From Meghimatium bilineatum (Eukaryota; Mollusca; Gastropoda; Stylommatophora; Philomycidae), in the NCBI GenBank assembly GCA_034231615.1, contig CM067298.1:33176127-33240126 (forward strand): 64,000 nt of DNA, read 5' to 3'. The translations under genes were made by a program, and so were the position numbers. The notes beneath the pieces were generated by a model. That model was not told the DNA's origin. It searched no databases and saw only the letters and a program-made list of their open reading frames with translations. Below, piece by piece: positions 14,518-63,255 of this stretch; positions within the stretch are counted from its first letter, which is position 1, and the number at the start of each line of letters is the position of its first letter.

Positions 14518-15302
14518 CATCATCAAGTGACGTATTCTTTCCAGAACGTAGTCTTTCCTATGGATCTCTTGAATTATCCGCGGTCTTGAGCAAGTTGCCC
14601 TGCATCTTCCAGTGACATGCGCAGGCATTCTTGAATGTCTTTTGTCCAACGGTGTCTTGGTCGGCCTTTGTCCCTGTTTCCTTCTATCATCCCCTCCAGT
14701 AACACTCTCTCCATGCCGTCGTGTCTCTTAATATGACCAAAAAAAACTAGCGTTTTCTTTAATATAGTGTTCAGAAGCCAGCCTTCCTGGACGTTAATTG
14801 TTTCTAACACCTCCTGGTTTGTTTTCTTCGCTGTCCATGGTATTCTCAAAACTCTTCTATAACACTTTAATTCAAATGATGTTATTCTCTTGGTCACTGT
14901 TTTATTTAGTGTCCATACTTCACATCCATATGTCGCCACAGGAAATACACATGTTCGTAGTAAACACAATTTGGTTCTTATGTTAGTACCTTGCCATAAT
15001 TTCTTTATCTGTTTTAATTTTGCCAGCGCCATTGCCGTTCTTCTCTTAATCTCAACTACGCAGTCCCCCGAATTGTTTATATTAGTTCCTAAATAATCAA
15101 AATGTGTCACATCTTCCAAATTGCAGTTCTCATGATTAATTTTGGGTCTTGATTTAGTTTTGTCAGTTGCCATTATTTTTGTCTTTTTCGTATTTAAGAA
15201 CTCTGAGAATACCACAGAAAAATAGAGTGAAAATGTAGTATAGGTCTCCGTTGGGCTATAAATAGCTTTAACGTTACAGACTGCCCTTGAACAACCAATC
15301 AT
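14518..15302 (-). pseudogene. RTE-type LINE C-terminal fragment (242 open codons)
   Basis: An open frame (14,574-15,302) contains THFDYLGTNINNSGDC, TYGCEVWTLNKTVTKR, YRRVLRIPWTAKKTNQEVL, FFGHIKRHDGMERVL and GRPRHRWTKDIQECL, in the order of the RTE/BovB post-RT region. A stop at 14,574 interrupts the conserved tail, which continues as FKRSIGKTTFWKEYVT to about 14,518. The RT core and endonuclease are missing. It is among the longest intact LINE pieces in the window, but clearly 5'-truncated. Confidence 0.88.
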
Positions 15303-33309: not shown

Positions 33310-36003
33310 GAACAATCGTCTGTTAGCTAGACATACCATCAATTTACACAACCATCTTCTATTAGCTAGTCATACCATCAGTTTACACAACCATCTTCTA
33401 TTAGCTATACATACCATCAGTTTACACAACCATCTTCTATTAGCTAGTTATACCATCAGTTTACACAACCATCTTCTATTAGCTATACATACCATCAGTT
33501 TACACAACCATCTTCTATTAGCTAGTCATACCATCAGTTTACACAACCATCTTCTATTAGCTAGTCATACCATCAGTTTACACAACCATCTTCTATTAGC
33601 TATACATACCATCAGTTTACACAACCATCTTCTATTAGCTAGACATACCATCAGTTTACACAACCATCTTCTATTAGCTATACATACCATCAGTTTACAC
33701 AACCATCTTCTATTAGCTATACATACCATCAGTTTACACAACCATCTTCTATTAGCTAGTCATACCATCAGTTTACACAACCATCTTCTATTAGCTAGTC
33801 ATACCATCAGTTTACACAACCATCTTCTATTAGCTAGTCATACCATCAGTTTACACAACCATCTTCTATTAGCTAGACATACCATCAGTTTACACAACCA
33901 TCTTCTATTAGCTAGTCATACCATCAGTTTACACAACCATCTTCTATTAGCTAGACATACCATCAGTTTACACAATCATCTTCTATTAGCTAGACATACC
34001 ATCAGTTTATACAACCATCTTCTATTAGCTAGACATACCATCAGTTTACACAACCATCTTCTATTAGCTAGTCATACCATCAGTTTACACAACCATCTTC
34101 TATTAGCTATACATACCATCAGTTTACACAACCATATTCTATTAGCTAGACATACCATCAGTTTACACAACCATCTTCTATTAGCTAGACATACCATCAG
34201 TTTACACAACCATCTTCTATTAGCTAGACATACCATCAGTTTACACAACCATCTTCTATTAGCTAGACATACCATCAGTTTACACAACCATCTTCTATTA
34301 GCTAGACATACCATCAGTTTACACAACCATCTTCTATTAGCTAGACATACCATCAGTTTACACAACCATCTTCTATTAGCTAGTCATACCATCAGTTTAC
34401 ACAACCATCTTCTATTAGCTATACATACCATCAGTTTACACAACCATCTTCTATTAGCTAGACATACCATCAGTTTACACAACCATCTTCTATTAGCTAG
34501 TCATACCATCAGTTTACACAACCATCTTCTATTAGCTAGACATACCATCAGTTTACACAACCATCTTCTATTAGCTAGTCATACCATCAGTTTACACAAC
34601 CATCTTCTATTAGCTATACATACCATCAGTTTACACAACCATCTTCTATTAGCTAGTCATACCATCAGTTTACACAACCATCTTCTATTAGCTAGTCATA
34701 CCATCAGTTTACACAACCATCTTCTATTAGCTAGACATACCATCAGTTTACACAACCATCTTCTATTAGCTAGTCATACCATCAGTTTACACAACCATCT
34801 TCTATTAGCTAGACATACCATCAGTTTACACAATCATCTTCTATTAGCTAGACATACCATCAGTTTATACAACCATCTTCTATTAGCTAGACATACCATC
34901 AGTTTACACAACCATCTTCTATTAGCTAGTCATACCATCAGTTTACACAACCATCTTCTATTAGCTAGACATACCATCAGTTTACACAACCATCTTCTAT
35001 TAGCTATACATACCATCAGTTTACACAACCATCTTCTATTTTTAGCTAGACATACCATCAGTTTACACAACCATCTTCTATTAGCTAGTCATACCATCAG
35101 TTTACACAACCATCTTCTATTAGCTAGACATACCATCAGTTTACACAACCATCTTCTATTAGCTATACATACCATCAGTTTACACAACCATCTTCTATTA
35201 GCTATACATACCATCAGTTTACACAACCATCTTCTATTAGCTAGTCATACCATCAGTTTACACAACCATCTTCTATTAGCTAGTCATACCATCAGTTTAC
35301 ACAACCATCTTCTATTAGCTAGACATACCATCAGTTTACACAACCATCTTCTATTAGCTAGTCATACCATCAGTTTACACAACCATCTTCTATTAGCTAG
35401 ACATACCATCAGTTTACACAATCATCTTCTATTAGCTAGACATACCATCAGTTTATACAACCATCTTCTATTAGCTAGACATACCATCAGTTTACACAAC
35501 CATCTTCTATTAGCTAGTCATACCATCAGTTTACACAACCATCTTCTATTAGCTAGACATACCATCAGTTTACACAACCATCTTCTATTAGCTAGTCATA
35601 CCATCAGTTTACACAACCATCTTCTATTAGCTAGACATACCATCAGTTTACACAATCATCTTCTATTAGCTAGACATACCATCAGTTTATACAACCATCT
35701 TCTATTAGCTAGACATACCATCAGTTTATACAACCATCTTCTATTAGCTAGACATACCATCAGTTTACACAACCATCTTCTATTAGCTAGTCATACCATC
35801 AGTTTACACAACCATCTTCTATTAGCTAGACATACCATCAGTTTACACAACCATCTTCTATTAGCTAGACATACCATCAGTTTACACAACCATCTTCTAT
35901 TAGCTAGTCATACCATCAGTTTACACAACCATCTTCTATTAGCTAGACATACCATCAGTTTACACAACCATCTTCTATTAGCTAGACATACCATCAGTTA
36001 ACG
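33310..36003. repeat. 39-bp minisatellite, about 69 units
   Basis: The unit is TAGCTAGACATACCATCAGT followed by TTACACAACCATCTTCTAT. Variants alternate at one position (AGA, AGT or ATA before CATACC), and rarer marks recur (ACAATCATC, TTTATACAAC). One unit near 35,040 has a 3-bp TTT insertion. Because 39 is a multiple of three, the plus strand stays open as a 903-codon frame repeating HTISLHNHLLLAR. The array ends at a diverged unit with TTAACGCAAACATTTT. I see no promoter, splice site or non-repeat coding sequence on either side, so I call it a repeat and not a gene. Confidence 0.95.
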
Positions 36004-36009
36004 CAAACA

Positions 36010-37290
36010 TTTTCTATTAATTAACTATCAAGTTATTTTTGTCCAGTTGGATAGGACAGCAAACGTCGCTCCCAAACTTCTTAATCGCATCCTATGGTAT
36101 GCATGTAGGTATGTTATTACGATTTGTTACTATCTACACCATGCAAGTAGATACCTACATATCTTAATGACTCATAGAATGTAAGTATATAGCTGCGTGA
36201 TGTAATGACATACAATAAACATAAATATAGATAGCTGCATAGCTTAATGATTCATATAATGTAAGTAAATAGATGCATTACTTAACAAGTACCATGTAAT
36301 GTCAAGCCAAGAAGAAATCATAATCTTTAGACTGAACAGAACACAACAGTTAGAGAAATGTTACATGTATACATAGCTTAATTTCGTATAATACATTTGT
36401 ACACCCCTGAAATTGCAGAAGTATTCTTTATGCATATCATCTCTACAAGAAATATGTCTACATCACGACGCCACTTTACAATATCCACATAGATTATGTG
36501 AATGTTGGAAACTAATCAAACTGAAGTTTTTGATTATGTAATTCAATGACTGACAGAGAAATTATACAGATTTTTAAAGAACTCTGAATTACTGAAGCCT
36601 GATTTTTGAACAAACTCTAAATTACTGAAGCCAATGAAGCGCTATTCGTATTTTTTCCTACTACCAATTACTTGCAGGTCGTAACAGTGTTATTGTATGC
36701 TCGAATTTCTTGAATAAAGTGTATAGATACATCTTATACAACAAGGAAAAATTAATCCGCCACGAAATGGACTCAAAAATATATAAGATAGAATATATGT
36801 CGTCTCCACATACAAGTTTTCTGCAATGAATGTCTGTCTCTTACTTTTGTGACGCACTCTGATAAGGTTTACATTTCGTCCCTATCGTAATGTTTACCTC
36901 TTGTGTCTTTTGTTATCTCTTACTCGATTTCTTTTATTTTCAGTGTCTTTCAGTGGGTTCTCAACAAGGTATAAACTCTTTTAATGTGACAGAAATGTTT
37001 TGTAGTTTTAATTTAAATGAGAAGTTATAATTCCATTATTACTTTTTCCATGACACCCTTATGTGTTTGTTGTCCTTTTCATGAAAATCTACATATGTCA
37101 GCAGCACACACGACCGCCATTACTTTACCAGATCTGGTATCCATTTCCATAGATCAACACATAAGTCTTAGTGATTTTATAAATATTTCCATTTAAACTG
37201 GATAATGATGCGATGCCAGTTCACTAATCACAAAGCTACGGACACTACTAAATAATGTAGAACTTATAAATGTCGTAGTTTTTGTTTGTG
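36010..37290. other. No gene recognised
   Basis: AT-rich, with a vague repeat of TACATAGCTTAATGA-like motifs at 36,110-36,290. No coding support. Confidence 0.5.
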
Positions 37291-42189: not shown

Positions 42190-42195
42190 CATGTA
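42190..42195. other. 6-bp target-site duplication CATGTA, left copy
   Basis: It directly abuts the first base of the palindromic element. The same six bases directly follow its last base at 56,675-56,680. Joining the flanks across one CATGTA gives a seamless entry into the 20-bp minisatellite. Confidence 0.9.
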
Positions 42196-42228
42196 AGTAG
42201 TTATATAGGGATGACTTGATGCGTAGTG

Positions 42229-42320
42229 CTCACCAATGCTCACCATTAGATGGCTCAAAGAGGAAAGTATTGGTGAGCTGCTCACCATTGCTCACCATTG
42301 CTCACCATTGCTCACCATTT
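42229..42320 (+). repeat. Subterminal 10-bp GCTCACCATT repeats (left arm)
   Basis: Four perfect tandem copies (about 42,281-42,319) plus diverged outer copies surround AGATGGCTCAAAGAGGAAAG and its near-duplicate AGATGGTTCAAAGAAGAAAG. The mirror lies at 56,550-56,641. Repeated motifs at both tips are candidate binding sites for a transposition or replication protein. Confidence 0.85.
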
Positions 42321-42377
42321 AGATGGTTCAAAGAAGAAAGTATTGACACACCAACACACCAGATTGTCAGCCAGTAG

Positions 42378-42492
42378 GATGGGGCGGCGCGAGATACCCC
42401 ACCCCGGCCCGAGCGGTACCCCCCACCGTTGGTGGGGGGCGCGCGCGGATCACGGGGGGGGGGGGGTGGTGGGGTGGGACCCCACCCGCTGG
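42378..42492 (+). repeat. GC-rich subterminal hairpins and poly-G tract (left arm)
   Basis: An island of G/C in an AT-rich element. CCCCCCACCGTTGGTGGGGGG forms a perfect hairpin, GCGCGCGC follows, then a run of 13 G and a GGGGTGGGACCCCACCC palindrome. The mirrored run on the right arm has 21 C, the largest difference between the arms. Confidence 0.85.
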
Positions 42493-42779
42493 GTTATTTT
42501 TCCGCTGAAAATTTTCCAGTATGTGTTAGAGAATTAAAATGTGTGTGTGGTGTGTGTGTGTGTATGGTGGGTGTCTGAAACGCCCCATTTTTCTCTGTGT
42601 TGGTGTGTTGAATAAAAAAAATAATTTTCCGCGTGCTTATCTCCCACCCTTTCCTCTCGTGTGTCGGTTCTTAACATGAAATGAATTTATCTGTTTAGTG
42701 GTCATAAGGTTTTTCCAATGAAACTTTTCCAGTGTTTTTTAGGTACAAGGTGATACATCAAGGTCAATATCAGTGAACT

Positions 42780-43955
42780 TTGTAACAATTTTTTAACCTG
42801 TGATTCACCTTTAGACTGATAAGCCAAGATAAAGAAAATGACACATACAACAACTGAGCTTGTGTCGACCTCACCAGTCTAATTATGAAACTTTTCCACA
42901 CCAGAATTTTGTCTCGTTCAGATTAGTGGCCTATCGCACCCACATTTAAACCATGCGTTGTATTGGTTTATTTATAAAACAGGCCAATTTTTGTAACCTG
43001 TGCTTCACCTTTAGACTGATAATCCAAGATAAAGAAAATGACACATACATCAGCTGAACTTGTGTCGACCTCAACATTCTAATTAAGAAACTTTTCCACA
43101 CCAGAAATTTTGTCTCGTTCAGATTAGCGGACTATCGCACCCACATTTAAACCATGCGTTGTATTGGTTTATTTATAAAACAGGCCAATTTTTGTAACCT
43201 GTGCTTCACCTTTAGACTGATAATCCAAGATAAAGAAAATGACACATACATCAGCTGAACTTGTGTCGACCTCAACATTCTAATTAAGAAACTTTTCCAC
43301 ACCAGAAATTTTGTCTCGTTCAGATTAGTGGACTATCGCACCCACATTTAAACCATGCGTTGTATTGGTTTATTTATAAAACAAGCGTGTGTGGTGTCTA
43401 ACGAATGGGCGTGAAATGGTATTTCCATAGAAACTTTTACACACCAGAAATTTTGTCTCGTTCAGATTAGTGGACTATCGCACCCACATTTAAACCATGC
43501 GTTGTATTGGTTTATTTATAAAACAGGCGTGTGTGGTGTCTAATGAATGACCGTGAAATGGTATTTCCATATAAGGGGGGTGTCTGAAACTCCCCATTTT
43601 TATCTGTGTTGGTGTGTTGAATAAAAAAAAATAAACGGAAACTTTTCCAGTGTTTTTAGGTACAAGGTGATACAACAAGGGCAATATCAGTGAAGTTTGT
43701 AACAATTTTTGTAACCTGTGCTTCACCTTTAGACTGATAATGCAAGATAAAGAAAATGACACATACATCAGCTGACCTTGTGTCGACCTCAACATTCTAA
43801 TTATGAAACTTTTCCACACCAGAAATTTTGTCTCGTTCAGATTAGTGGACTATCGCACCCACATTTAAACCATGCGTTGTATTGGTTTATTTATAAAACA
43901 GGCGTGTGTGGTGTCTAATGAATGGCCGTGAAATGGTATTTCCATATAAATTAAA
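42780..43955 (+). repeat. 220-bp tandem repeat block (left arm)
   Basis: About five complete or partial units contain AACCTGTGCTTCACCTTTAG, CTTTTCCACACCAGAAATTT and GTTGTATTGGTTTATTTAT. Clear periods of about 219 bp occur at 42,973 and 43,192, with rearranged units after 43,400. The mirror is at 54,907-56,082. Confidence 0.85.
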
Positions 43956-44689
43956 CCAAGAAACAAACAATTCAACACGTTCAACGAAATATATGAAGAA
44001 CCTGTTTAAATATATGCGTATATAGCAAGCTTTATATAAATACACAGTGAAAATAAAACTAACATCTATTTAACTTTAGCTGGTAGCATAACGCTGGACG
44101 AGGCCAGGTAAGCCAAACATCTGCAAACCATTAAAACCCTCTGTATCGCAATTTAGTCCGTGGTCAGTACACGGAAGCCCAGCGGGTGCCAATTAACCAG
44201 ATAAGCACGCTCACACTGAAAGTGGGCGCGCGTTTCTTTAAAACGAACGTTAAGACTATTTTCTCTCTCTCGCTCTCCCTCTCTCTCTCTCTTTCTCTCT
44301 CTCTCTTTACATATGTGGCACTTTATAAGCAGAGAACGTTTTCTGTTACTTATACAGCTTTTTTGTATTTAGAAACATATTTTTGTTAAAAAACATATTA
44401 TTAGTAATATTATAGATTATTATTATATACAAATAATTATTCGTATAATCACGTGTATTTTGAGATATTTGAACCTAGGAAACAAAATATTCTTCTTCTG
44501 CTGGTGTAATCAAAGGTTCTACCCTTGTGTGGTTATATTCAAGTGGTTCTTACAATGTAAAAATAGAGGCGTGTTCCTGTGCTGTGATGACATAACCTAA
44601 CAGCCTGCTGTCCTATGACCAACGATTCGTGTATAATTCATTAGGAGGCGCTAACCTCTCTATCAAGGGGTCTTACATACACTTCTTTT

Positions 44690-45195
44690 TTGTGTGCTTA
44701 TATTCAAGTGGTTCTCAAATTGTAAAATACTGACCATAACAATGCAAACCCCCGAGACATATAGACACCACAAAAACTAATATTCTGCAAACATACTTCT
44801 GTGCCTTTGACCAACGGTTCTCATTATTTCATACTTATATTCAAGTGGTTCTCAAATTGTAAAATCTTGCCCATGCAATGTAAAACCCCTGACATATAGA
44901 CACAACAAAAGCTATATTCTCCAAACATTCTTCTGTGCCTTTGGCCAATGATTATCATTATTTTATGCTTATATTCAAGTGGTTATCACATTGTAAAAAC
45001 CTGACCATGAGAATGTAAAACTCGTAACATTGACAACCAAAAAGAAAATATTCTGCAAACATTATTCTGTGTCTGTGGCCAATAGTTCGCATTATTTTAT
45101 GGTTATGTTAAAGTGGTTCTCACACAGGTCAATCCTGACCATACAAATGTAAAACCCATGTCATATATACACCACAAAAGCTAATATTCTCCAAA
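44690..45195 (+). repeat. 125-140-bp repeat block (left arm)
   Basis: Units contain TATATTCAAGTGGTTCTCA, AATGTAAAACCCCTGACAT and CTCCAAACATTCTTCTGTG, at about 44,698, 44,830, 44,967 and 45,108. The mirror is at 53,667-54,172. Confidence 0.75.
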
Positions 45196-45419
45196 CAGTC
45201 TTCTCTCAGGCCACGCTTCAGCCATGGTCGCTTGATGGTCTCTGTATGCTCTTTAACTATGTTCTACCATATTATCATTATGGTCTCACTAACTTCTAAC
45301 AGGGTCTACTTTGGGCCAATATATTCTTAGTATATTTTCGCTAGAGTCTTAAACTAGGTTCTCATGTGCAGCTTCAATTATGTTCTCTCTGTGTTTTGAG
45401 TTATTTTTCTCTACTAAAA

Positions 45420-47700
45420 GGTTTCTTATTAACATATTTCATTAGCGCAAACGGCGTGTTTATCAGATGTCGAAATTAACAAGTCACACGAAAACACATT
45501 TCAGCACTTTCTCACTAACAACATAGTACATTTGAGAAGTTTTATTTGTGTAAACTTACCATTTATTGGTGTTTTTTCACAACTAGATAAGCCACTTATA
45601 CGGATTTTCGCTGTTTTATTAGTTGTCTAAATTGTCATACGAAAATACATTTCAGTATTTTTGCAGTAACATCATGACAAATTTTATCGTGTTTGTATTT
45701 GAGTGACTTTACAAGGTACCATTTTCCACAATTAACCAATCTGCTTTTAGTGATTTTCATTATGTTTTATCATTTGTCTAAATTATCATACCACACGAAA
45801 TATATTTCAGTACTTTTACACAAACATTATAACACATTTTTTTATTTGTGTAAGTACATCATTTACAATTTTTTCACAAGTAACCAACCCACTTTTACTA
45901 TGTTATCATACTAAAAGAACCCATTTTTCAGTACGTTGCCACTAAGAACATAACGCATTTTGCCATGTTTTTATTTGTGGGCCTGCGGCATTTATCAATT
46001 TTAGTGATGTTCGTTATGTTTTATCAGTAGTTATCTAAATTAGATACCATACAAACCCATATTTCAGTACTTTTGCACAAACATCATAACACATTTACCA
46101 TGTTTTATTTATTCGCTTTCAACAGTTATTACTATTTTTGCAATTACACAAGCCGAATTGGGTGATTTTCGTTATGTTTTATCATTTGTCTAAATTATCA
46201 TACCACACGAAACATATTTCAGTACTTTTACACAAACATTATAACACATTTTTTTTTATTTGTGTAAGTACATCATTTACAATTTTTTCACAAGTAACCA
46301 ACCCACTTTTACTATGTTATCACACTAAAAGAACCCATTTTTCAGTACGTTGCCACTAACAACATAACACATTTTGCCATGTTTTTATTTGTGACCTTCG
46401 GTATTTATCAATTTTAGTGATGTTCGTTATGTTTTATCAGTAGTTATCTAAATTAGATACCATACAAACCCATATTTCAGTACTTTTGCACAAATATCAT
46501 AACACATTTACCATGTTTTATTTATTCGCTTTCAACCGTTATTACTATTTTTTGCAATTACACAAGCCGAATTGGGTGATTTTCGTTATGTTTTATCACA
46601 TGTCTAAGTTATGATACCATACGAAGCTATTTTTCAGTACGTTGCCATTAACAACATAACAACTTTTGACATGTTTTTATCTGTTGGATAATCACTTATC
46701 ACTTTTTCACAACAAGGCAAGTTGGTGGTAGCTTTCAGTGTGATCAGACAGTATTTATCTCTTTTCAATACTTACAGTTGCGCATTTCACGCCATTTAGA
46801 TACAAAACACGGTTCCATTTTTGAATTTGTGTAAGTACATCATTTAATTATTTTTTTTTTCACAAGTAACCAACCCAATTTTACTATGTTATCATACCAA
46901 AAGAAACCATTTTCAGTACGCTGCCACTAACAATATAACACATTTTAGCATGTTTTTATTTGTGGGCCTGCGGTATTTATCAATTTTAGTGATGTTCGTT
47001 ATGTTTTATCAGTATTTATCTAAATTAGATACCATACAAACCCATATTTCAGTATTTTTTGCACAAACATGATAACACATTTACCCTGTTTTATTTGTGT
47101 GCTTTCAACAGTCATTACTATTTTTGCAATTACACAATCCGAATTGAGTGATTTTCGTTATGTTTTATCACATGTCTAAGTTATGATACCATACAAAGCT
47201 ATTTTTCAGTACGTTGCCATTAACAACATAACAAACACAACGCATTTATCACTTTTGACAGCTAGACATGCTGTTTTTCGTAGTTTTCACAATGAGTAAA
47301 GTCACTATTTCACCTGTCTCTAGACTTACAAGGACAAATTACAGTGGTTTTATGTACCAACATGTTTAATATTACATATATTCAAATGACAGAAGTCATG
47401 TTTTATCACTGTTCACAACTAGGCAAACAGCATTTAACAATTGTTGGTATTACCAAAAGCATTGCGTGGTGGTTCACTAGACTTACACTGCAAATTTTCC
47501 TATTTTTATGCACCAACCGGCTTCATATTGCATATTTCCAAACGACGAAGGTCATGTTTTATCACTTTTCACAGCTAGCTAACCCGATTTAAACACTTTT
47601 CAATTGACAAACGACATGTTTTATTAGTTTTCTATATTATCAGGTTATATGAAACCACATTACAATACGTTTACACTAAAAAACATAAGGCATTTAACCA
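45420..47700 (+). repeat. About 412-bp repeat block (left arm)
   Basis: Repeated modules include TATGTTTTATCATTTGTCTA, CATATTTCAGTACTTTTGCA and TATTTTTGCAATTACACAAG. Units are spaced about 412-414 bp apart (for example 45,790 to 46,202 and 46,002 to 46,416), with a diverged longer unit after. Open frames in this block are repeat by-products. The mirror is at 51,162-53,442. Confidence 0.8.
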
Positions 47701-48158
47701 CTTTTCACAATTAGGCAAACCGCGTTTCGCAAATACCTTGCAATAACCCGGGTGATATCACATGACATTAGCCAGGGCCGATAGCTCCTGTTGTTACCCA
47801 TGACAATGACCTAGGACACTACACCCTGTTAATAGCTCATCCGGATATCACCATACTAACAAGCCATACTAATATAATATTCGTTATTAACACCAACACG
47901 ACTAAAAAAAAAACCCTGATACAGGACTATCTGGCTAGGAACAACTGACACATTTCTTACAACTAAATACCGATACAATATAAGAGGCGTTGTTGTTGGT
48001 TATGGTTTGCGTATATTTCCCAGTTATAGACAAATATATACACCAAGCTAAACTCGACAATATTTTTTTTTAAAAGACAAGCACATATTAAAAAATACTG
48101 ACAAATACAGAAAAGACATTCACAGAAAAATTTAACAACGCAGGTTGCCTCATAATGG

Positions 48159-48164
48159 TTTATT
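48159..48164 (-). promoter_or_regulatory. Polyadenylation signal AATAAA (left copy)
   Basis: It lies about 110 bp past the stop codon of the left zinc-finger gene. It is the exact mirror of 50,698-50,703. Confidence 0.65.
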
Positions 48165-48273
48165 GAATCATTTGAACGACATACATAGCATAGTTAGAAA
48201 GGGGCATATGTTGGTGTCAGCATTTACTATCTATAAGAACAGCTTCAATTGGTTGTGTCGGTTGTCTAAACAC

Positions 48274-49149
48274 TCAACCCAACGGATGGTCGTTTATAAA
48301 ATATAAGTCGAAAGAAGTTCCCACAATGTTCTCCAGCTGATATTTGGTATTTGGCCGCGTATTCTGGGCAACATTCATAGGGTCAGCTTCGTTAACTTTC
48401 TGAACAAAGAGGTCAAAGTCGTGTCTATTATTTATCAGCGGTGGGTACTCTAAAACAGCTGAATTGTTAACTGAGCCGTGAAAAAATCTTGCTTCTAATG
48501 TCTCTCGATGCCGTAATATCAAATGTTTGGAAAAGTTCACTTTGAACCGCTTAGTTTGGTCAGTGAACATGGGTCTTAGAACCTCATTCCAGTCTTGTAT
48601 ATGAGGTATCGTTGGGGGATGAAAAAACGTGTAAGTCGCGCTGGACTTACGAACTGTGATATGTGTATGTATAGTTGACCAATTATCGATATATATTTGC
48701 TGTATGTCTAATGGTAAACCAGCTAAAAAATCGAAGTGGGGTGAGTTAGGTGCCCGTGGTGTTAGTGCTCTTATGGTGCCGTTATTGTCTGGTAGTAGTG
48801 ATTGTTGTGATAATGGAGGTACACTGTTTTCAGAGGTAGCAGACAGCGACAAGGGCGATGTAATTTCCAAAACTGCTGCTAATGAAGAGCCAGTCATATG
48901 TGGGGGTGAAACTGATAACGTTAGTGGTGTAACTGGCGCGGATGCATGACCAACACGCCCGTTCATTTGTTCTTGGTGTTTCTTTACGTGCCGCTGTAAA
49001 GACGCAATATCAGAATAGTCACGCTTACAAACAGAACAGTTATATCGACGCTTAATGTGCAAATTCTGACAATGTCTACGCAGTGTATATACGCGTTTAA
49101 ACTCTTTCCCACAAGTTTTATAGGCGTCGGCTTTGCTACCCAGGGCGAC
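48274..49149 (-). CDS. Zinc-finger protein with conserved C-terminal domain (left copy)
   Basis: This exon is identical in translation to the right copy (49,713-50,588) and reads outward from the axis. A C2H2 finger (YNCSVCKRDYSDIASLQRH, then KKH) follows a first finger that has lost its first cysteine (YKTCGKEFKRVYTLRRH). A Ser/Pro-rich linker leads to a domain with IYIDNWSTIHTHITVRKS, DWNEVLRPMFTDQTKRFKVN, RHRETLEARFFHGSVNN and ENIVGTSFDLYFINDHPLG. The open frame extends past 49,149 without an ATG. I end it at a CAG acceptor, so a 5' exon is missing or lies unseen near the axis. The C-terminal domain resembles, from general memory, a domain found beside polymerase genes in invertebrate Polinton-like elements. 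That is unverified. Confidence 0.7.
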   Translation of the reverse strand, partial: VALGSKADAYKTCGKEFKRVYTLRRHCQNLHIKRRYNCSVCKRDYSDIASLQRHVKKHQEQMNGRVGHASAPVTPLTLSVSPPHMTGSSLAAVLEITSPLSLSATSENSVPPLSQQSLLPDNNGTIRALTPRAPNSPHFDFLAGLPLDIQQIYIDNWSTIHTHITVRKSSATYTFFHPPTIPHIQDWNEVLRPMFTDQTKRFKVNFSKHLILRHRETLEARFFHGSVNNSAVLEYPPLINNRHDFDLFVQKVNEADPMNVAQNTRPNTKYQLENIVGTSFDLYFINDHPLG

Positions 49150-49404
49150 CTGGTGATGATAAAACACAAAGATGTCAATAGGACAAACACATATATTTTA
49201 GTCGATGTAACAACCAAACCATAATAAAAGCATCGTTTAATAACAGAATATACGCAATAATACACACTAATTATAACCACACAGAGCTAATACAGTGACA
49301 ACCGGGCATGGTGGCTAGTTCACCACCAGTGAATCCAGTGAATTAGTTTTTTAACTAGTCATAAGCGAACTTTTATCACACCAAGCAAATTCAATCACAG
49401 CCCC

Positions 49405-49457
49405 TCCTCTTATTACTAGGCACCTTGTATGTGTTAGTGGCTATAGTGATAAGAGGC
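49405..49457. repeat. Axis of the palindrome: imperfect 14-bp stem and 25-nt loop
   Basis: The last 14 bp of the arms (49,405-49,418 and 49,444-49,457) pair at 12 positions, with mismatches at 49,405/49,457 and 49,414/49,448. The loop 49,419-49,443 is not self-complementary. Outward from 49,404/49,458 pairing becomes essentially perfect for kilobases. A short imperfect stem at the axis is what a snap-back primer would leave. Confidence 0.85.
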
Positions 49458-49712
49458 GGGGCTGTGATTGAATTTGCTTGGTGTGATAAAAGTTCGCTTA
49501 TGACTAGTTAAAAAACTAATTCACTGGATTCACTGGTGGTGAACTAGCCACCATGCCCGGTTGTCACTGTATTAGCTCTGTGTGGTTATAATTAGTGTGT
49601 ATTATTGCGTATATTCTGTTATTAAACGATGCTTTTATTATGGTTTGGTTGTTACATCGACTAAAATATATGTGTTTGTCCTATTGACATCTTTGTGTTT
49701 TATCATCACCAG

Positions 49713-50588
49713 GTCGCCCTGGGTAGCAAAGCCGACGCCTATAAAACTTGTGGGAAAGAGTTTAAACGCGTATATACACTGCGTAGACATTGTCAGAATT
49801 TGCACATTAAGCGTCGATATAACTGTTCTGTTTGTAAGCGTGACTATTCTGATATTGCGTCTTTACAGCGGCACGTAAAGAAACACCAAGAACAAATGAA
49901 CGGGCGTGTTGGTCATGCATCCGCGCCAGTTACACCACTAACGTTATCAGTTTCACCCCCACATATGACTGGCTCTTCATTAGCAGCAGTTTTGGAAATT
50001 ACATCGCCCTTGTCGCTGTCTGCTACCTCTGAAAACAGTGTACCTCCATTATCACAACAATCACTACTACCAGACAATAACGGCACCATAAGAGCACTAA
50101 CACCACGGGCACCTAACTCACCCCACTTCGATTTTTTAGCTGGTTTACCATTAGACATACAGCAAATATATATCGATAATTGGTCAACTATACATACACA
50201 TATCACAGTTCGTAAGTCCAGCGCGACTTACACGTTTTTTCATCCCCCAACGATACCTCATATACAAGACTGGAATGAGGTTCTAAGACCCATGTTCACT
50301 GACCAAACTAAGCGGTTCAAAGTGAACTTTTCCAAACATTTGATATTACGGCATCGAGAGACATTAGAAGCAAGATTTTTTCACGGCTCAGTTAACAATT
50401 CAGCTGTTTTAGAGTACCCACCGCTGATAAATAATAGACACGACTTTGACCTCTTTGTTCAGAAAGTTAACGAAGCTGACCCTATGAATGTTGCCCAGAA
50501 TACGCGGCCAAATACCAAATATCAGCTGGAGAACATTGTGGGAACTTCTTTCGACTTATATTTTATAAACGACCATCCGTTGGGTTGA
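49713..50588 (+). CDS. Zinc-finger protein with conserved C-terminal domain (right copy)
   Basis: The function is unknown; nuclear DNA or RNA binding is plausible from the finger. The exon starts after a good splice acceptor (TTTTATCATCACCAG, AG at 49,711-49,712) and runs 291 codons to TGA at 50,586-50,588. Residues of about 10-30 form a finger whose first Cys is Tyr, one base from TGT. About 34-58 form a complete C2H2 finger. About 60-135 are Ser/Thr/Pro-rich. About 145-291 form the conserved-looking domain ending INDHPLG. No in-frame ATG precedes the fingers and the upstream frame reaches a stop near 49,662, so the 5' exon is absent or cryptic. The axis lies only 280 bp upstream, so the gene may have been 5'-truncated when the palindrome formed. 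AATAAA lies about 110 bp downstream. The frame is intact in both arms. Confidence 0.72.
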   Translation, partial: VALGSKADAYKTCGKEFKRVYTLRRHCQNLHIKRRYNCSVCKRDYSDIASLQRHVKKHQEQMNGRVGHASAPVTPLTLSVSPPHMTGSSLAAVLEITSPLSLSATSENSVPPLSQQSLLPDNNGTIRALTPRAPNSPHFDFLAGLPLDIQQIYIDNWSTIHTHITVRKSSATYTFFHPPTIPHIQDWNEVLRPMFTDQTKRFKVNFSKHLILRHRETLEARFFHGSVNNSAVLEYPPLINNRHDFDLFVQKVNEADPMNVAQNTRPNTKYQLENIVGTSFDLYFINDHPLG

Positions 50589-50697
50589 GTGTTTAGACAA
50601 CCGACACAACCAATTGAAGCTGTTCTTATAGATAGTAAATGCTGACACCAACATATGCCCCTTTCTAACTATGCTATGTATGTCGTTCAAATGATTC

Positions 50698-50703
50698 AAT
50701 AAA
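50698..50703 (+). promoter_or_regulatory. Polyadenylation signal AATAAA (right copy)
   Basis: It is positioned about 110 bp after the right zinc-finger stop codon, which supports a real 3' end for this transcript. Confidence 0.65.
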
Positions 50704-51161
50704 CCATTATGAGGCAACCTGCGTTGTTAAATTTTTCTGTGAATGTCTTTTCTGTATTTGTCAGTATTTTTTAATATGTGCTTGTCTTTTAAAAAAATAT
50801 ATTGTCGAGTTTAGCTTGGTGTATATATTTGTCTATAACTGGGAAATATACGCAAACCATAACCAACAACAACGCCTCTTATATTGTATCGGTATTTAGT
50901 TGTAAGAAATGTGTCAGTTGTTCCTAGCCAGATAGTCCTGTATCAGGGTTTTTTTTTTAGTCGTGTTGGTGTTAATAACGAATATTATATTAGTATGGCT
51001 TGTTAGTATGGTGATATCCGGATGAGCTATTAACAGGGTGTAGTGTCCTAGGTCATTGTCATGGGTAACAACAGGAGCTATCGGCCCTGGCTAATGTCAT
51101 GTGATATCACCCGGGTTATTGCAAGGTATTTGCGAAACGCGGTTTGCCTAATTGTGAAAAG

Positions 51162-53442
51162 TGGTTAAATGCCTTATGTTTTTTAGTGTAAACGTATTGT
51201 AATGTGGTTTCATATAACCTGATAATATAGAAAACTAATAAAACATGTCGTTTGTCAATTGAAAAGTGTTTAAATCGGGTTAGCTAGCTGTGAAAAGTGA
51301 TAAAACATGACCTTCGTCGTTTGGAAATATGCAATATGAAGCCGGTTGGTGCATAAAAATAGGAAAATTTGCAGTGTAAGTCTAGTGAACCACCACGCAA
51401 TGCTTTTGGTAATACCAACAATTGTTAAATGCTGTTTGCCTAGTTGTGAACAGTGATAAAACATGACTTCTGTCATTTGAATATATGTAATATTAAACAT
51501 GTTGGTACATAAAACCACTGTAATTTGTCCTTGTAAGTCTAGAGACAGGTGAAATAGTGACTTTACTCATTGTGAAAACTACGAAAAACAGCATGTCTAG
51601 CTGTCAAAAGTGATAAATGCGTTGTGTTTGTTATGTTGTTAATGGCAACGTACTGAAAAATAGCTTTGTATGGTATCATAACTTAGACATGTGATAAAAC
51701 ATAACGAAAATCACTCAATTCGGATTGTGTAATTGCAAAAATAGTAATGACTGTTGAAAGCACACAAATAAAACAGGGTAAATGTGTTATCATGTTTGTG
51801 CAAAAAATACTGAAATATGGGTTTGTATGGTATCTAATTTAGATAAATACTGATAAAACATAACGAACATCACTAAAATTGATAAATACCGCAGGCCCAC
51901 AAATAAAAACATGCTAAAATGTGTTATATTGTTAGTGGCAGCGTACTGAAAATGGTTTCTTTTGGTATGATAACATAGTAAAATTGGGTTGGTTACTTGT
52001 GAAAAAAAAAATAATTAAATGATGTACTTACACAAATTCAAAAATGGAACCGTGTTTTGTATCTAAATGGCGTGAAATGCGCAACTGTAAGTATTGAAAA
52101 GAGATAAATACTGTCTGATCACACTGAAAGCTACCACCAACTTGCCTTGTTGTGAAAAAGTGATAAGTGATTATCCAACAGATAAAAACATGTCAAAAGT
52201 TGTTATGTTGTTAATGGCAACGTACTGAAAAATAGCTTCGTATGGTATCATAACTTAGACATGTGATAAAACATAACGAAAATCACCCAATTCGGCTTGT
52301 GTAATTGCAAAAAATAGTAATAACGGTTGAAAGCGAATAAATAAAACATGGTAAATGTGTTATGATATTTGTGCAAAAGTACTGAAATATGGGTTTGTAT
52401 GGTATCTAATTTAGATAACTACTGATAAAACATAACGAACATCACTAAAATTGATAAATACCGAAGGTCACAAATAAAAACATGGCAAAATGTGTTATGT
52501 TGTTAGTGGCAACGTACTGAAAAATGGGTTCTTTTAGTGTGATAACATAGTAAAAGTGGGTTGGTTACTTGTGAAAAAATTGTAAATGATGTACTTACAC
52601 AAATAAAAAAAAATGTGTTATAATGTTTGTGTAAAAGTACTGAAATATGTTTCGTGTGGTATGATAATTTAGACAAATGATAAAACATAACGAAAATCAC
52701 CCAATTCGGCTTGTGTAATTGCAAAAATAGTAATAACTGTTGAAAGCGAATAAATAAAACATGGTAAATGTGTTATGATGTTTGTGCAAAAGTACTGAAA
52801 TATGGGTTTGTATGGTATCTAATTTAGATAACTACTGATAAAACATAACGAACATCACTAAAATTGATAAATGCCGCAGGCCCACAAATAAAAACATGGC
52901 AAAATGCGTTATGTTCTTAGTGGCAACGTACTGAAAAATGGGTTCTTTTAGTATGATAACATAGTAAAAGTGGGTTGGTTACTTGTGAAAAAATTGTAAA
53001 TGATGTACTTACACAAATAAAAAAATGTGTTATAATGTTTGTGTAAAAGTACTGAAATATATTTCGTGTGGTATGATAATTTAGACAAATGATAAAACAT
53101 AATGAAAATCACTAAAAGCAGATTGGTTAATTGTGGAAAATGGTACCTTGTAAAGTCACTCAAATACAAACACGATAAAATTTGTCATGATGTTACTGCA
53201 AAAATACTGAAATGTATTTTCGTATGACAATTTAGACAACTAATAAAACAGCGAAAATCCGTATAAGTGGCTTATCTAGTTGTGAAAAAACACCAATAAA
53301 TGGTAAGTTTACACAAATAAAACTTCTCAAATGTACTATGTTGTTAGTGAGAAAGTGCTGAAATGTGTTTTCGTGTGACTTGTTAATTTCGACATCTGAT
53401 AAACACGCCGTTTGCGCTAATGAAATATGTTAATAAGAAACC
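51162..53442 (-). repeat. About 412-bp repeat block (right arm)
   Basis: Mirror of 45,420-47,700, with matching lengths at the A/T runs that I compared. Confidence 0.8.
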
Positions 53443-53666
53443 TTTTAGTAGAGAAAAATAACTCAAAACACAGAGAGAACATAATTGAAGCTGCACATGA
53501 GAACCTAGTTTAAGACTCTAGCGAAAATATACTAAGAATATATTGGCCCAAAGTAGACCCTGTTAGAAGTTAGTGAGACCATAATGATAATATGGTAGAA
53601 CATAGTTAAAGAGCATACAGAGACCATCAAGCGACCATGGCTGAAGCGTGGCCTGAGAGAAGACTG

Positions 53667-54172
53667 TTTGGAGAATATTAGCTTTTGTGGTGTATATATG
53701 ACATGGGTTTTACATTTGTATGGTCAGGATTGACCTGTGTGAGAACCACTTTAACATAACCATAAAATAATGCGAACTATTGGCCACAGACACAGAATAA
53801 TGTTTGCAGAATATTTTCTTTTTGGTTGTCAATGTTACGAGTTTTACATTCTCATGGTCAGGTTTTTACAATGTGATAACCACTTGAATATAAGCATAAA
53901 ATAATGATAATCATTGGCCAAAGGCACAGAAGAATGTTTGGAGAATATAGCTTTTGTTGTGTCTATATGTCAGGGGTTTTACATTGCATGGGCAAGATTT
54001 TACAATTTGAGAACCACTTGAATATAAGTATGAAATAATGAGAACCGTTGGTCAAAGGCACAGAAGTATGTTTGCAGAATATTAGTTTTTGTGGTGTCTA
54101 TATGTCTCGGGGGTTTGCATTGTTATGGTCAGTATTTTACAATTTGAGAACCACTTGAATATAAGCACACAA
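53667..54172 (-). repeat. 125-140-bp repeat block (right arm)
   Basis: Mirror of 44,690-45,195. Confidence 0.75.
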
Positions 54173-54906
54173 AAAAGAAGTGTATGTAAGACCCCTTGAT
54201 AGAGAGGTTAGCGCCTCCTAATGAATTATACACGAATCGTTGGTCATAGGACAGCAGGCTGTTAGGTTATGTCATCACAGCACAGGAACACGCCTCTATT
54301 TTTACATTGTAAGAACCACTTGAATATAACCACACAAGGGTAGAACCTTTGATTACACCAGCAGAAGAAGAATATTTTGTTTCCTAGGTTCAAATATCTC
54401 AAAATACACGTGATTATACGAATAATTATTTGTATATAATAATAATCTATAATATTACTAATAATATGTTTTTTAACAAAAATATGTTTCTAAATACAAA
54501 AAAGCTGTATAAGTAACAGAAAACGTTCTCTGCTTATAAAGTGCCACATATGTAAAGAGAGAGAGAGAAAGAGAGAGAGAGAGGGAGAGCGAGAGAGAGA
54601 AAATAGTCTTAACGTTCGTTTTAAAGAAACGCGCGCCCACTTTCAGTGTGAGCGTGCTTATCTGGTTAATTGGCACCCGCTGGGCTTCCGTGTACTGACC
54701 ACGGACTAAATTGCGATACAGAGGGTTTTAATGGTTTGCAGATGTTTGGCTTACCTGGCCTCGTCCAGCGTTATGCTACCAGCTAAAGTTAAATAGATGT
54801 TAGTTTTATTTTCACTGTGTATTTATATAAAGCTTGCTATATACGCATATATTTAAACAGGTTCTTCATATATTTCGTTGAACGTGTTGAATTGTTTGTT
54901 TCTTGG

Positions 54907-56082
54907 TTTAATTTATATGGAAATACCATTTCACGGCCATTCATTAGACACCACACACGCCTGTTTTATAAATAAACCAATACAACGCATGGTTTAAATG
55001 TGGGTGCGATAGTCCACTAATCTGAACGAGACAAAATTTCTGGTGTGGAAAAGTTTCATAATTAGAATGTTGAGGTCGACACAAGGTCAGCTGATGTATG
55101 TGTCATTTTCTTTATCTTGCATTATCAGTCTAAAGGTGAAGCACAGGTTACAAAAATTGTTACAAACTTCACTGATATTGCCCTTGTTGTATCACCTTGT
55201 ACCTAAAAACACTGGAAAAGTTTCCGTTTATTTTTTTTTATTCAACACACCAACACAGATAAAAATGGGGAGTTTCAGACACCCCCCTTATATGGAAATA
55301 CCATTTCACGGTCATTCATTAGACACCACACACGCCTGTTTTATAAATAAACCAATACAACGCATGGTTTAAATGTGGGTGCGATAGTCCACTAATCTGA
55401 ACGAGACAAAATTTCTGGTGTGTAAAAGTTTCTATGGAAATACCATTTCACGCCCATTCGTTAGACACCACACACGCTTGTTTTATAAATAAACCAATAC
55501 AACGCATGGTTTAAATGTGGGTGCGATAGTCCACTAATCTGAACGAGACAAAATTTCTGGTGTGGAAAAGTTTCTTAATTAGAATGTTGAGGTCGACACA
55601 AGTTCAGCTGATGTATGTGTCATTTTCTTTATCTTGGATTATCAGTCTAAAGGTGAAGCACAGGTTACAAAAATTGGCCTGTTTTATAAATAAACCAATA
55701 CAACGCATGGTTTAAATGTGGGTGCGATAGTCCGCTAATCTGAACGAGACAAAATTTCTGGTGTGGAAAAGTTTCTTAATTAGAATGTTGAGGTCGACAC
55801 AAGTTCAGCTGATGTATGTGTCATTTTCTTTATCTTGGATTATCAGTCTAAAGGTGAAGCACAGGTTACAAAAATTGGCCTGTTTTATAAATAAACCAAT
55901 ACAACGCATGGTTTAAATGTGGGTGCGATAGGCCACTAATCTGAACGAGACAAAATTCTGGTGTGGAAAAGTTTCATAATTAGACTGGTGAGGTCGACAC
56001 AAGCTCAGTTGTTGTATGTGTCATTTTCTTTATCTTGGCTTATCAGTCTAAAGGTGAATCACAGGTTAAAAAATTGTTACAA
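54907..56082 (-). repeat. 220-bp tandem repeat block (right arm)
   Basis: Mirror of 42,780-43,955. Confidence 0.85.
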
Positions 56083-56377
56083 AGTTCACTGATATTGACC
56101 TTGATGTATCACCTTGTACCTAAAAAACACTGGAAAAGTTTCATTGGAAAAACCTTATGACCACTAAACAGATAAATTCATTTCATGTTAAGAACCGACA
56201 CACGAGAGGAAAGGGTGGGAGATAAGCACGCGGAAAATTATTTTTTTTATTCAACACACCAACACAGAGAAAAATGGGGCGTTTCAGACACCCACCATAC
56301 ACACACACACACCACACACACATTTTAATTCTCTAACACATACTGGAAAATTTTCAGCGGAAAAATAACCCAGCGGG

Positions 56378-56492
56378 TGGGGTCCCACCCCACCACCCCC
56401 CCCCCCCCCCCCCCCCGTGATCCGCGCGCGCCCCCCACCAACGGTGGGGGGTACCGCTCGGGCCGGGGTGGGGTATCTCGCGCCGCCCCATC
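56378..56492 (-). repeat. GC-rich subterminal hairpins and poly-C tract (right arm)
   Basis: Mirror of the left GC-rich island, with a run of 21 C (56,396-56,416) where the left has 13 G. The difference is probably polymerase slippage or a sequencing limit. Confidence 0.85.
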
Positions 56493-56674
56493 CTACTGGC
56501 TGACAATCTGGTGTGTTGGTGTGTCAATACTTTCTTCTTTGAACCATCTAAATGGTGAGCAATGGTGAGCAATGGTGAGCAATGGTGAGCAGCTCACCAA
56601 TACTTTCCTCTTTGAGCCATCTAATGGTGAGCATTGGTGAGCACTACGCATCAAGTCATCCCTATATAACTACT

Positions 56675-56680
56675 CATGTA
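56675..56680. other. 6-bp target-site duplication CATGTA, right copy
   Basis: It directly follows the last base of the palindrome and is itself the first six bases of the 20-bp minisatellite unit. Confidence 0.9.
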
Positions 56681-57532
56681 CAGTCAGTATGTCACATGTA
56701 CAGTCAGTATGTCACATGTACAGTCAGTATGTCACATGTACAGTCAGTATGTCACATGTACAGTCAGTATGTCACATGTACAGTCTCTATGTCACATGTA
56801 CAGTCAGTATGCCACATGTACAGTCAGTATGTCACATGTACAGTCAGTATGTCACATGTACAGTCAGTATGTCACATGTACAGTCAGTATGTCACATGTA
56901 CAGTCAGTATGCCACATGTACAGTCAGTATGTCACATGTACAGTCAGTATGTCACATGTACAGTCAGTATATCACATGTACAATCTCTATGTCACATGTA
57001 CACTCAGTATGTCACATGTACAGGCTCTATGTCACATGTACACTCAGTATGTCACATGTACAGTCTCTATGTCACATGTACACTCAGTATGTCACATGTA
57101 CAGTCTCTATGTCACATTTACAGTCTCTATGTCACATGTACAGTCAGTATGTCACATGTACACTCAGTATGTCACATATACAGTCTCTATGTCACATGTA
57201 CAGTCTCTATGTCACATGTACAGTCTCTATGTCACATGTACAGTCAGTATATCACATTTACAGTCTATATGTCACATGTACAGTCTCTATGTCACATGTA
57301 CACTCAGTATGTCACATGTACAGTCTCTATGTCACATGTGCACTCAGTATGTCACATGTACAGTCTCTATGTCACATGTACACTCAGTATGTCACATGTA
57401 CAGTCTCTATGTCACATTTACAGTCTCTATGTCACATGTACAGTCAGTATGTCACATGTACACTCAGTATGTCACATGTACACTCAGTATGTCACATGTA
57501 CAGTCAGTATGTCACATGTACAGTCTCTATGT
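56675..57532. repeat. 20-bp minisatellite, about 43 units
   Basis: The unit is CATGTACAGTCAGTATGTCA. Variants are CAGTCTCTATG and CACTCAGTATG. The first third is almost uniform. The rest alternates variants in 40-bp dimers and contains a long duplication of about 115 bp (57,061-57,176 and 57,361-57,476), 300 bp apart. All three plus frames are open because three 20-bp units make 60 bp. None is a credible gene. Confidence 0.95.
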
Positions 57533-62368: not shown

Positions 62369-63066
62369 ATGGATGCCATCAAATCCTACTTTAGCAAATT
62401 AATTCCTCACAGTAATATCTCAAATAAAGAAAGTGGAAAATGGAGGAGGGGAAGAAGCAGGGAAAGAGTAGGGAAGATTGGAATACCTCATCGTTCAGCA
62501 TCTACATCGCATGTTGATTTAGATTCTCGGGATTCAGACCTGGGAGCAATCAACGCGAGTTCATTAAGAATATTTTCTCCAACGATGGAGACGTACCGGA
62601 TACACCATAGGGCATCTGAACCCCAGTGTTCTACACATGAAAGCCAAGCGCTGTTGCAAAACAGACGAGATATCACACGGACACCACCTCCATCTAAACC
62701 ACCAAGAAAAGATTTGGTTTTCTCTGTTCAACTTGATACTGAGGGTTTGAATGATATTGGAGTGGAGATAGATTGTGTGCCAGCTTCTGCTAACAGTTCG
62801 CCCGATTCTAAACCTAGGGATGACGTCTTGAACTTTTCTGGTAATAAAGACACATTCGAAGAAATGAATGACATTTGTGTGACAGCAGGAAGTACAACAG
62901 TAGACAGATCCACTGCAAATCTTCATAAAGATCGAGGCCTAACCTTCAAGGTGGTTGCTTTGACTCAAGGCACGCGATGTAATATGGATGGAAGAGTGAA
63001 AATTAACGATGAAATTTTGGATATAAATGGAGATTCACTTCACAAGGAAACTCGTGAATCAGCCAG
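62369..63066 (+). CDS. PDZ-domain protein, first coding exon (partial gene)
   Basis: It probably encodes a scaffold protein that binds short C-terminal peptides at membranes or junctions. The ATG at 62,369 has a good context (A at -3, G at +4) and an in-frame TAA at 62,360-62,362. The frame runs 232 full codons and ends at a strong donor, CAG|GTAAGA (GT at 63,067), in phase 2. Residues 20-34 are basic and 105-114 are proline-rich (PPPSKPPRK). A PDZ fold starts about 114 (DLVFSVQLDTEGLNDIGVEI) and resumes at 191 (LTFKVVALTQGTRCNMDGRV, then INDEILDINGDSL). Between them is an unusual acidic and Ser-rich insert of about 55 residues. The rest of the PDZ domain must lie in downstream exons beyond the window. 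An upstream acceptor (CCTTTTATCAG, AG at 62,263-62,264) may start this exon. The specific family member is not recognised; polarity or junction scaffolds are candidates. Confidence 0.82.
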
Positions 63067-63255
63067 GTAAGAAATCATTGTATGTTTGTTGTGATCTCCA
63101 GAAATTGGGAGGAATACAGCTCTTGAATCCTTTTGTGCAATAGGAGATTTCACCAGAGCACTATTTCATACCAAGGAGGTCCAAACTTTCAGCAGTGTTC
63201 AATGCTTTAAGAAGTAGCCATCTACTTAGATGAGTAAATACATGATTGTCTAGAT

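Follow-up and report, generated by a model that had tools for sequence, protein, structure and literature searches.

Within a 64,000-nucleotide stretch of the genome of the gastropod Meghimatium bilineatum (assembly GCA_034231615.1, contig CM067298.1, positions 33,176,127 to 33,240,126; hereafter the window, with positions counted from its first base) lies a 14.5-kb near-perfect palindrome whose best description is that of a non-autonomous, palindromic derivative of a Polinton, and which looks like one of dozens of palindromic, stripped-down Polinton-like elements in this genome. The palindrome reported by the initial annotation is real: aligned with its own reverse complement, the interval 42196-56674 is 99.74% identical over 14,488 columns, with arms of about 7.22 kb. 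Base-by-base comparison of the arms gives a single substitution (48064/50798) and a G-run of 13 bases in the left arm versus 21 in the right, the extra 8 bases lying at about 56409-56416. These differences had been counted correctly, whereas the centre had been taken for merely two mismatches: inward of the mismatches at 49405/49457 and 49414/49448, the arms are separated by a non-matching spacer of ~31 bp, a short asymmetric loop (Table 1). Nearly the whole element is inverted repeat, with one gene per arm, and none of its open reading frames (ORFs) of at least 120 amino acids is a polymerase, integrase, ATPase, protease or capsid gene.

The element begins AGTAGTTATATA and ends TATATAACTACT, inverted terminal repeats that open with AG and close with CT, and the hexamer CATGTA stands at both borders, as the initial annotation had claimed. 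A 6-bp target duplication and AG...CT inverted terminal repeats are features of the Polinton/Maverick transposons. Directly abutting the right border of the insertion is a 20-bp minisatellite (56675-57525) that is open for 281-322 codons in three listed frames. The window contains 59 occurrences of CATGTA, 21 of which lie beyond the minisatellite array. Since the right CATGTA also begins the minisatellite, the target duplication of the window element is weak taken alone and rests mainly on other copies of the element, each of which carries its own.

Table 1. Features of the palindromic element in the window.
Feature	Position	Strand	Remark
Target duplication CATGTA, left copy	42190..42195	.	same-length duplications at other copies
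Left arm, ~7.22 kb	42196..49415	+	begins AGTAGTTATATA
Outer left arm	42196..44569	+	matches left end of Polinton C8:62365756 in pieces
Un-folded form of the C21:26702810 turn site	47996..48046	+	TTGG, 43-nt loop, CCAA
Terminal-protein-like ORF, left arm	48274..49167	-	297 amino acids; C2H2 finger and PolB N-terminal domain
Axis cassette	49340..49520	.	short hairpin arms flanking the loop
Asymmetric axis loop	49416..49446	.	~31 bp
Right arm, ~7.23 kb	49447..56674	-	reverse complement of left arm; ends TATATAACTACT
Terminal-protein-like ORF, second copy	49695..50588	+	right arm
Mirror of the Polinton left-end segment	54293..56674	-	right arm
Target duplication CATGTA, right copy	56675..56680	.	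first six bases of the 20-bp minisatellite

The assembly surveyed comprises 1.61 Gb in 32 contigs, and loci are given below as contig and position. The outer 405 bases of the left arm have at least 57 matches (311 candidates, of which 40 were scored), and most of these form facing pairs spaced 11-16 kb. Ten facing pairs were picked from this list and both halves of each were compared: nine are palindromic, the longest arm alignments being 99.25-99.97% identical (a central stretch of 1.67 kb in C3:48632843 and of 0.77 kb in C25:1733237 lies outside the arm alignment), and the tenth, C8:62365756, is non-palindromic. All ten are bordered by matched 6-bp flanks, each its own duplication, with three extra bases (AGT) separating the duplication from the left end in C22:31429828. 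AG...CT ends with 6-bp target duplications are therefore present in 11 of 11 cases (the window element and ten relatives), and the earlier assignment to the Polinton/Maverick class holds; no copy with different ends appeared among them to contradict it. Six more pairs were tested with small internal probes. Two proved symmetric (C2:7691161 and C4:16933572, the midpoint being symmetric in the latter and not in the former); the other four were not, and these have a Polinton ATPase region near one end. By these tests, 12 of the 17 pairs examined, including the window element, are palindromic and five are not. Further palindromes are C24:1590699-1606033 (AGTAGTATACCAGGG, target duplication AACATC) and C20:14349899-14363140 (abnormal right end, no clean duplication), both of which have other ends, and C17:16794397-16801526, with the duplication CTTGAG. 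The claim that a symmetric Polinton-like derivative is unusual stands, although the window element is a member of a population in this genome and not a single oddity.

Across the window element and 11 further palindromes read on both flanks, matched 6-bp duplications are accompanied by unlike flanks. Long palindromes are a known class of artefact, and an assembly fold-back had been a concern from the outset; these unlike flanks with matching duplications, together with the differing lengths of the palindromes, their arm-private substitutions, the occurrence of an axis loop in either insertion orientation and the presence of non-palindromic Polintons in the same assembly, leave an assembly or sequencing artefact with next to no credibility. 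The same flanks make it very improbable that the palindromes are chromosomal inverted duplications of integrated Polintons, produced by break-induced replication, cruciforms or sister-strand fusion. Such events also give short-seed inverted junctions of the kind described below, but they would have duplicated flanking host DNA, whereas the symmetry here ends at the transposon terminus, followed by a matched duplication in all of the palindromes so read but the 13th, C20:14349899, with its abnormal right end.

Several copies depart from the simple plan. The axis copies C20:14356427 and C20:14369487 lie 13,060 bases apart, nearly one element length, with an abnormal end between them, and are possibly a tandem pair. 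L047 (C14:52930289-52932772) and L025/L026 (C25:1733237) are palindromes with a deleted or lopsided centre, as expected if long palindromes are trimmed centrally after insertion. A second terminus-like motif, TATGTAACTACT, lies ~2 kb inside each arm in two palindromes (L019 2321/L020 4978; L027 2472/L028 4910) and is a possible older end within the arm. The arms of C9:14651581 and C22:31429828 are alike up to GTACTATAG and then lead into two different axes, and the common axis cassette seemingly became joined onto another arm. Finally, facing pairs ~950 bases apart with half of the axis found at C22 (C20:49541918/49542867, C1:61416900/61417830, C2:53717662/53718595 and similar) are probably another palindromic group with its own axis.

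The non-palindromic pair C8:62365756-62380986 is a complete-length Polinton with a AGTAGTTATATA-type end and the 6-bp duplication CACGCC, a full-length counterpart to the intact relative with the same termini that the initial annotation had proposed to look for. Specifically, Pfam recognises an rve integrase with chromodomain (E 3.4e-15 and 3.1e-7), an adenovirus-type (adenain-like) protease (2.6e-5) and a packaging ATPase (IVa2-like, 2.8e-5; poxvirus A32, 5.4e-4); the copy also encodes a PC4-like protein, further ORFs match nothing in Pfam, which thus identified no capsid protein, and the frame of its polymerase gene (PolB) has one interrupting stop. The frames of the related PolB copies L029-L031 are uninterrupted over 1,430-1,458 amino acids, and L029 displays the motifs DFE (exonuclease-like) and DTDS. 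Searches of this polymerase against Pfam and solved structures returned zinc fingers only, PHROGs yielded only weak families of unknown function, and viral contigs gave no match for either the window ORF or PolB. Database relatives of the polymerase number 1,425; among the 120 listed, many carry DNA_pol_B_2, and the named organisms are mostly gastropods (Bradybaena, Pomacea, Elysia, Nucella and Littorina), with two sea stars. Bases 1-323 of the window arm match both ends of C8:62365756, and the arm up to base 2374 matches its left end in pieces, mostly at 95-98% identity. A comparison of ten palindromes with this Polinton gave one pattern throughout: piecewise arm matches to roughly the first 2.1 kb at the PolB side, and at the opposite end matches to no more than about the first 0.3-0.4 kb, besides small internal matches in two copies. 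A rule that palindromes come only from the PolB side is refuted by the right-end palindrome C17:16794397. L029-L031 were also considered as helper of the AGTAGTATACCAGGG end family and rejected, the sole similarity lying in a repeat that matches both strands. The shared ends suggest that the window element could be mobilised by proteins of the full-length copy.

The single gene retained in each arm is an ORF of 297 codons, read outward from the axis and 41% identical to the N-terminus of the Polinton polymerase L029. Its stop falls right after an invariant glycine (9 of 9 and 46 of 46 alignment rows), just before DNLCFFRCLA, which we take to be an OTU active-site motif. On this comparison the ORF is the N-terminal domain of a Polinton polymerase, apparently ending before a vOTU-like domain. 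A search of a protein collection, in which candidates were limited to proteins no longer than 1.75 times the query so that full polymerases could not appear, returned no match for it. The available text of a preprint based on structure models (PMC11071308) argues that the N-terminal domain of polinton polymerases is the terminal protein and the next domain a vOTU protease, regards cleavage between the two as probable, reports that some polintons have split the terminal protein off as a separate gene, and describes the fold of the terminal-protein domain (D1) as four strands and two helices, with a linking residue, Ser or Tyr in the D1 domains examined there, between helix 2 and the last strand. 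An AlphaFold2 model of the ORF built from a 46-row alignment has a mean predicted local distance difference test score (pLDDT) of 77, rising to ~92 over residues 141-297, and a predicted template modelling score of 0.56 (a single-sequence model, with a pLDDT of 33.6, was discarded), and its predicted order of strands and helices, compared without superposition, fits that description. Among full-length genomic matches to the ORF at 93% identity or more, 67 of 70 are without a stop (132 of 1,568 candidates scored), and in the deep comparison of the window ORF with C2:83940692, 31 of 202 synonymous sites have changed versus 46 of 689 non-synonymous sites (dN/dS 0.41, Fisher p 0.0003). Sequence and the predicted order of structure elements together suggest that the ORF product may be a terminal protein, the protein primer of replication.

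Un-folded relatives made it possible to resolve four axes, in which the seeds measure 4-5 bp; one of these axes belongs to a right-end palindrome. Over 430 bases that include TTGG, a 43-nt loop and CCAA, C21:26702810 shows no mismatch to the window arm; past CCAA it becomes the reverse complement of the sequence just before, whereas the window arm continues. All 40 scored matches (of 125 candidates) to the corresponding window stretch, the window's own two arms included, are un-folded end to end. C3:48632843 tracks a C9-type arm past the inverted pair CGGC/GCCG with its 32-nt loop and turns back there, its arms also differing in tandem-repeat copy number. In the right-end palindrome C17:16794397, whose 3.07-kb arms are 99.9% identical, the turn was read against L022 at ~97.6% identity and consists of AAAT/ATTT around a loop of ~1 kb. 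The C22-type axis follows L072 through CACT/AGTG plus one further pair across a mismatch, with a loop of ~23 nt, and occurs in at least nine places in both orientations, seven of them at 99-100% (40 scored of 324 candidates). At all four resolved axes the second arm extends as far as the terminus, where a matched 6-bp duplication comes next (after the three extra bases in C22); the template of the copying thus seems to have been a linear molecule with a free end, not a chromosome. Because the seeds are so short, the un-folded form is taken to be the older state; four different axes with un-folded relatives then mean that palindromes formed repeatedly, and the short seeds, one of them in a right-end palindrome, make strand snap-back on linear DNA the probable origin of new palindromes.

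A related polymerase behaves in this way in vitro. According to the available text of PMC1855051, more than 85% of 475 chimeras generated by phi29 strand-displacement synthesis were inverted and more than 70% were primed on 2-21 complementary nucleotides. By analogy, fold-back of a 3' end during strand-displacing, protein-primed synthesis would give such axes: in both cases inversion follows from a displaced 3' end priming on a few nearby complementary bases, although the chimeras described there are an in vitro by-product and the palindromes here inherited mobile elements. Flipping of the axis loop, as in a hairpin telomere, was considered as well; the loop is found in both orientations, yet this provides no evidence, because a symmetric element can insert either way round. 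The guessed midpoints of three more inverted pairs (L068, L070 and L072) proved asymmetric as axes. In C2:7691161, which has L068 at its midpoint, the outer probes are symmetric, and palindromic structure is therefore evident only in the outer part of this element; for L070, a C22-type axis sits elsewhere, at C19:35977686.

Of the axis cassette of the window element, at least 35 copies are close to full length (spanning query bases 8-176 or more; 62 candidates, 40 of them scored). Divergently oriented ORF copies flank 33 of these; the remaining two are C9:14658541, a verified palindrome without the ORF, and C8:56252640, with the ORF on one side only. A cassette shared mostly between divergent ORFs indicates that palindromes are inherited as palindromes. 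Full arms were compared at three sister loci with the same axis (6,159 gap-free columns): the two arms of a locus differ at 1, 2 and 1 sites and arms of different loci at 12-14, with 18 variable columns concordant and 4 discordant. For the ORF at 21 loci (all those fetched of the 35 cassette loci, plus C14:52930289, which has lost the cassette), the mean number of differences is 1.43 within loci versus 12.26 between them (210 pairs), 30 of 1,365 locus-sites are discordant, and a locus's own other arm is strictly the nearest at 11 loci and tied at five. Within-locus differences so much smaller than between-locus differences are unlike the outcome of simple copying and show that the arms are homogenised: they evolve in concert, most simply because each displaced strand would be a hairpin with pairing halves. 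Conversely, it can be envisioned that the palindrome was made once and then copied, with arm likeness arising only from continuing gene conversion on the chromosome after insertion, as in sex-chromosome palindromes. This would likewise yield within-locus identity and suits the many loci inheriting one axis cassette, but at least four different axes with un-folded relatives attest to repeated formation, and the one-arm changes that exist in the ORF (6 synonymous to 17 non-synonymous) look neutral, as if homogenised at transposition and not after. We consider such an exclusive role for chromosomal gene conversion unlikely, although some conversion may well occur alongside.

Elsewhere in the window, a 39-bp minisatellite of ~69 copies (33323-36019) has one frame open for 903 codons. 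The ORFs 931-1593 and 14574-15302, both on the minus strand and without a Pfam match, resemble what we presume to be remnants of non-LTR reverse transcriptases, and the plus-strand ORF 62369-63070 (233 codons), again with no Pfam match, might on our assumption be a host exon of a PDZ-type protein. In all, four window ORFs besides the terminal-protein-like one gave no match in Pfam, nor did the window in Rfam.

Starting from the palindromes with their termini and target duplications, the Polinton relatives, the four seeded axes and the concerted arms, we think it likely that a palindromic Polinton derivative is made by snap-back on a linear intermediate and spreads as a palindrome, its ORF supplying the terminal protein. 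Under this model, a DNA strand begun at one Polinton terminus on a linear, protein-primed extrachromosomal replication intermediate would stop part-way, its 3' end would pair with ~4-5 complementary upstream bases and extend back along itself to its own start, and fill-in of the resulting hairpin would produce a duplex whose two functional ends are the same. Integrase acting in trans from complete Polinton copies would insert this duplex with a 6-bp duplication, and the palindrome would thereafter spread as a palindrome. As each displaced strand would be a self-complementary hairpin, the arms would be re-copied from, or corrected against, each other every cycle and so stay alike, and the retained gene would provide the replication system with its protein primer, in the form of a terminal protein that is pre-cut.

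A number of observations weigh against this model. The L029 polymerase is not recognised as such by Pfam, its identity resting on motifs and relatives, and a genome search with PF03175 gave 19 matches, none at a pair with these ends. Most copies share one axis and are inherited palindromes, not new fold-backs. Another locus's arm is nearer than a locus's own at 5 of the 21 loci and ties with it at five, which is expected for very recent copies and weakens the test of concerted evolution. The candidate linking residue of the ORF, in the loop before the last strand, is Thr274, versus the Ser or Tyr in the available text of PMC11071308; the majority residue at this position of our alignment is Ser. 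Selection is undetectable within the recent family, where changes present in both arms number 14 synonymous to 31 non-synonymous (p = 0.21). No in-frame ATG lies upstream of the zinc fingers of the ORF, so an unmapped 5' exon is needed; GCCACCATG stands ~140 bases upstream, with an acceptor-like CAG just inside the frame opening, and splicing between the two is a guess. The lack of detectable selection and of an in-frame ATG also favours a rival view in which the ORF does not encode a working terminal protein; it would be either a passenger in decay or a truncated domain interfering with the helper polymerase. The loss of a cysteine from the first finger of the window copy compared with its sister copies L032, L033 and L044 speaks for this rival as well. 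Decay is opposed by the constraint over the deeper split, the position of the stop at a domain boundary and the frames kept open across the genome, all three of which are equally compatible with interference. We therefore regard this rival as a serious possibility, if on balance somewhat the less probable one.

The window element shares with known Polintons its AG...CT ends, its 6-bp duplication and left-end DNA matching a full-length copy of the same genome, and differs from them in being nearly all inverted repeat and in retaining, among ORFs of at least 120 amino acids, only an N-terminal PolB domain and no integrase, ATPase, protease or capsid gene. Protein-primed linear plasmids of the pGKL1 type have hairpin or palindromic deletion derivatives, in which, similarly, one end of a protein-primed replicon is doubled into a palindrome; by contrast, the elements described here are chromosomal and present in many copies, with a target duplication in each of the 12 read. 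Foldback-type transposons such as Galileo, which is reportedly classed with P elements by its transposase, also have very long inverted repeats with internal repeats, whereas the window element has Polinton ends and relatives. Adenovirids and one coral polinton have stand-alone terminal proteins that, as described in the available text of PMC11071308, are split off at the same boundary between the terminal-protein and vOTU domains, but here the domain is alone on a separate, non-autonomous palindromic element. No description of a palindromic Polinton was found in the open-access PMC literature (most subscription papers and non-PMC preprints being outside its scope), nor in the available text of PMC12368964, PMC11202377, PMC6431247 and PMC1864894. 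New here are the four seeded axes, the concerted evolution of the arms and the single gene per arm, corresponding to the N-terminal domain of the Polinton polymerase.

To our knowledge, Polinton replication has so far been inferred from gene content. The M. bilineatum genome appears to preserve the products of single replication errors, with the un-folded forms present in other copies, and a linear, strand-displacing, free-ended Polinton intermediate thereby becomes testable at the level of individual bases. These elements are also an animal source of long inserted palindromes and offer a route to concerted arm evolution outside sex chromosomes. The window element may have two origins, encode its own protein primer and behave as a satellite, which makes it a candidate case of a satellite equipped with no more of its helper than the primer protein. 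Taken further, a palindromic satellite would bring its own protein primer, replicate through self-complementary hairpins by which its halves stay identical, and parasitise the polymerase and integrase of complete Polintons, its lineages being continually born by snap-back from either helper end; this extended scenario we entertain tentatively, as falling slightly short of an even chance. If true, it would represent a distinct life style of selfish DNA, that of a palindromic satellite of a virus-like transposon.

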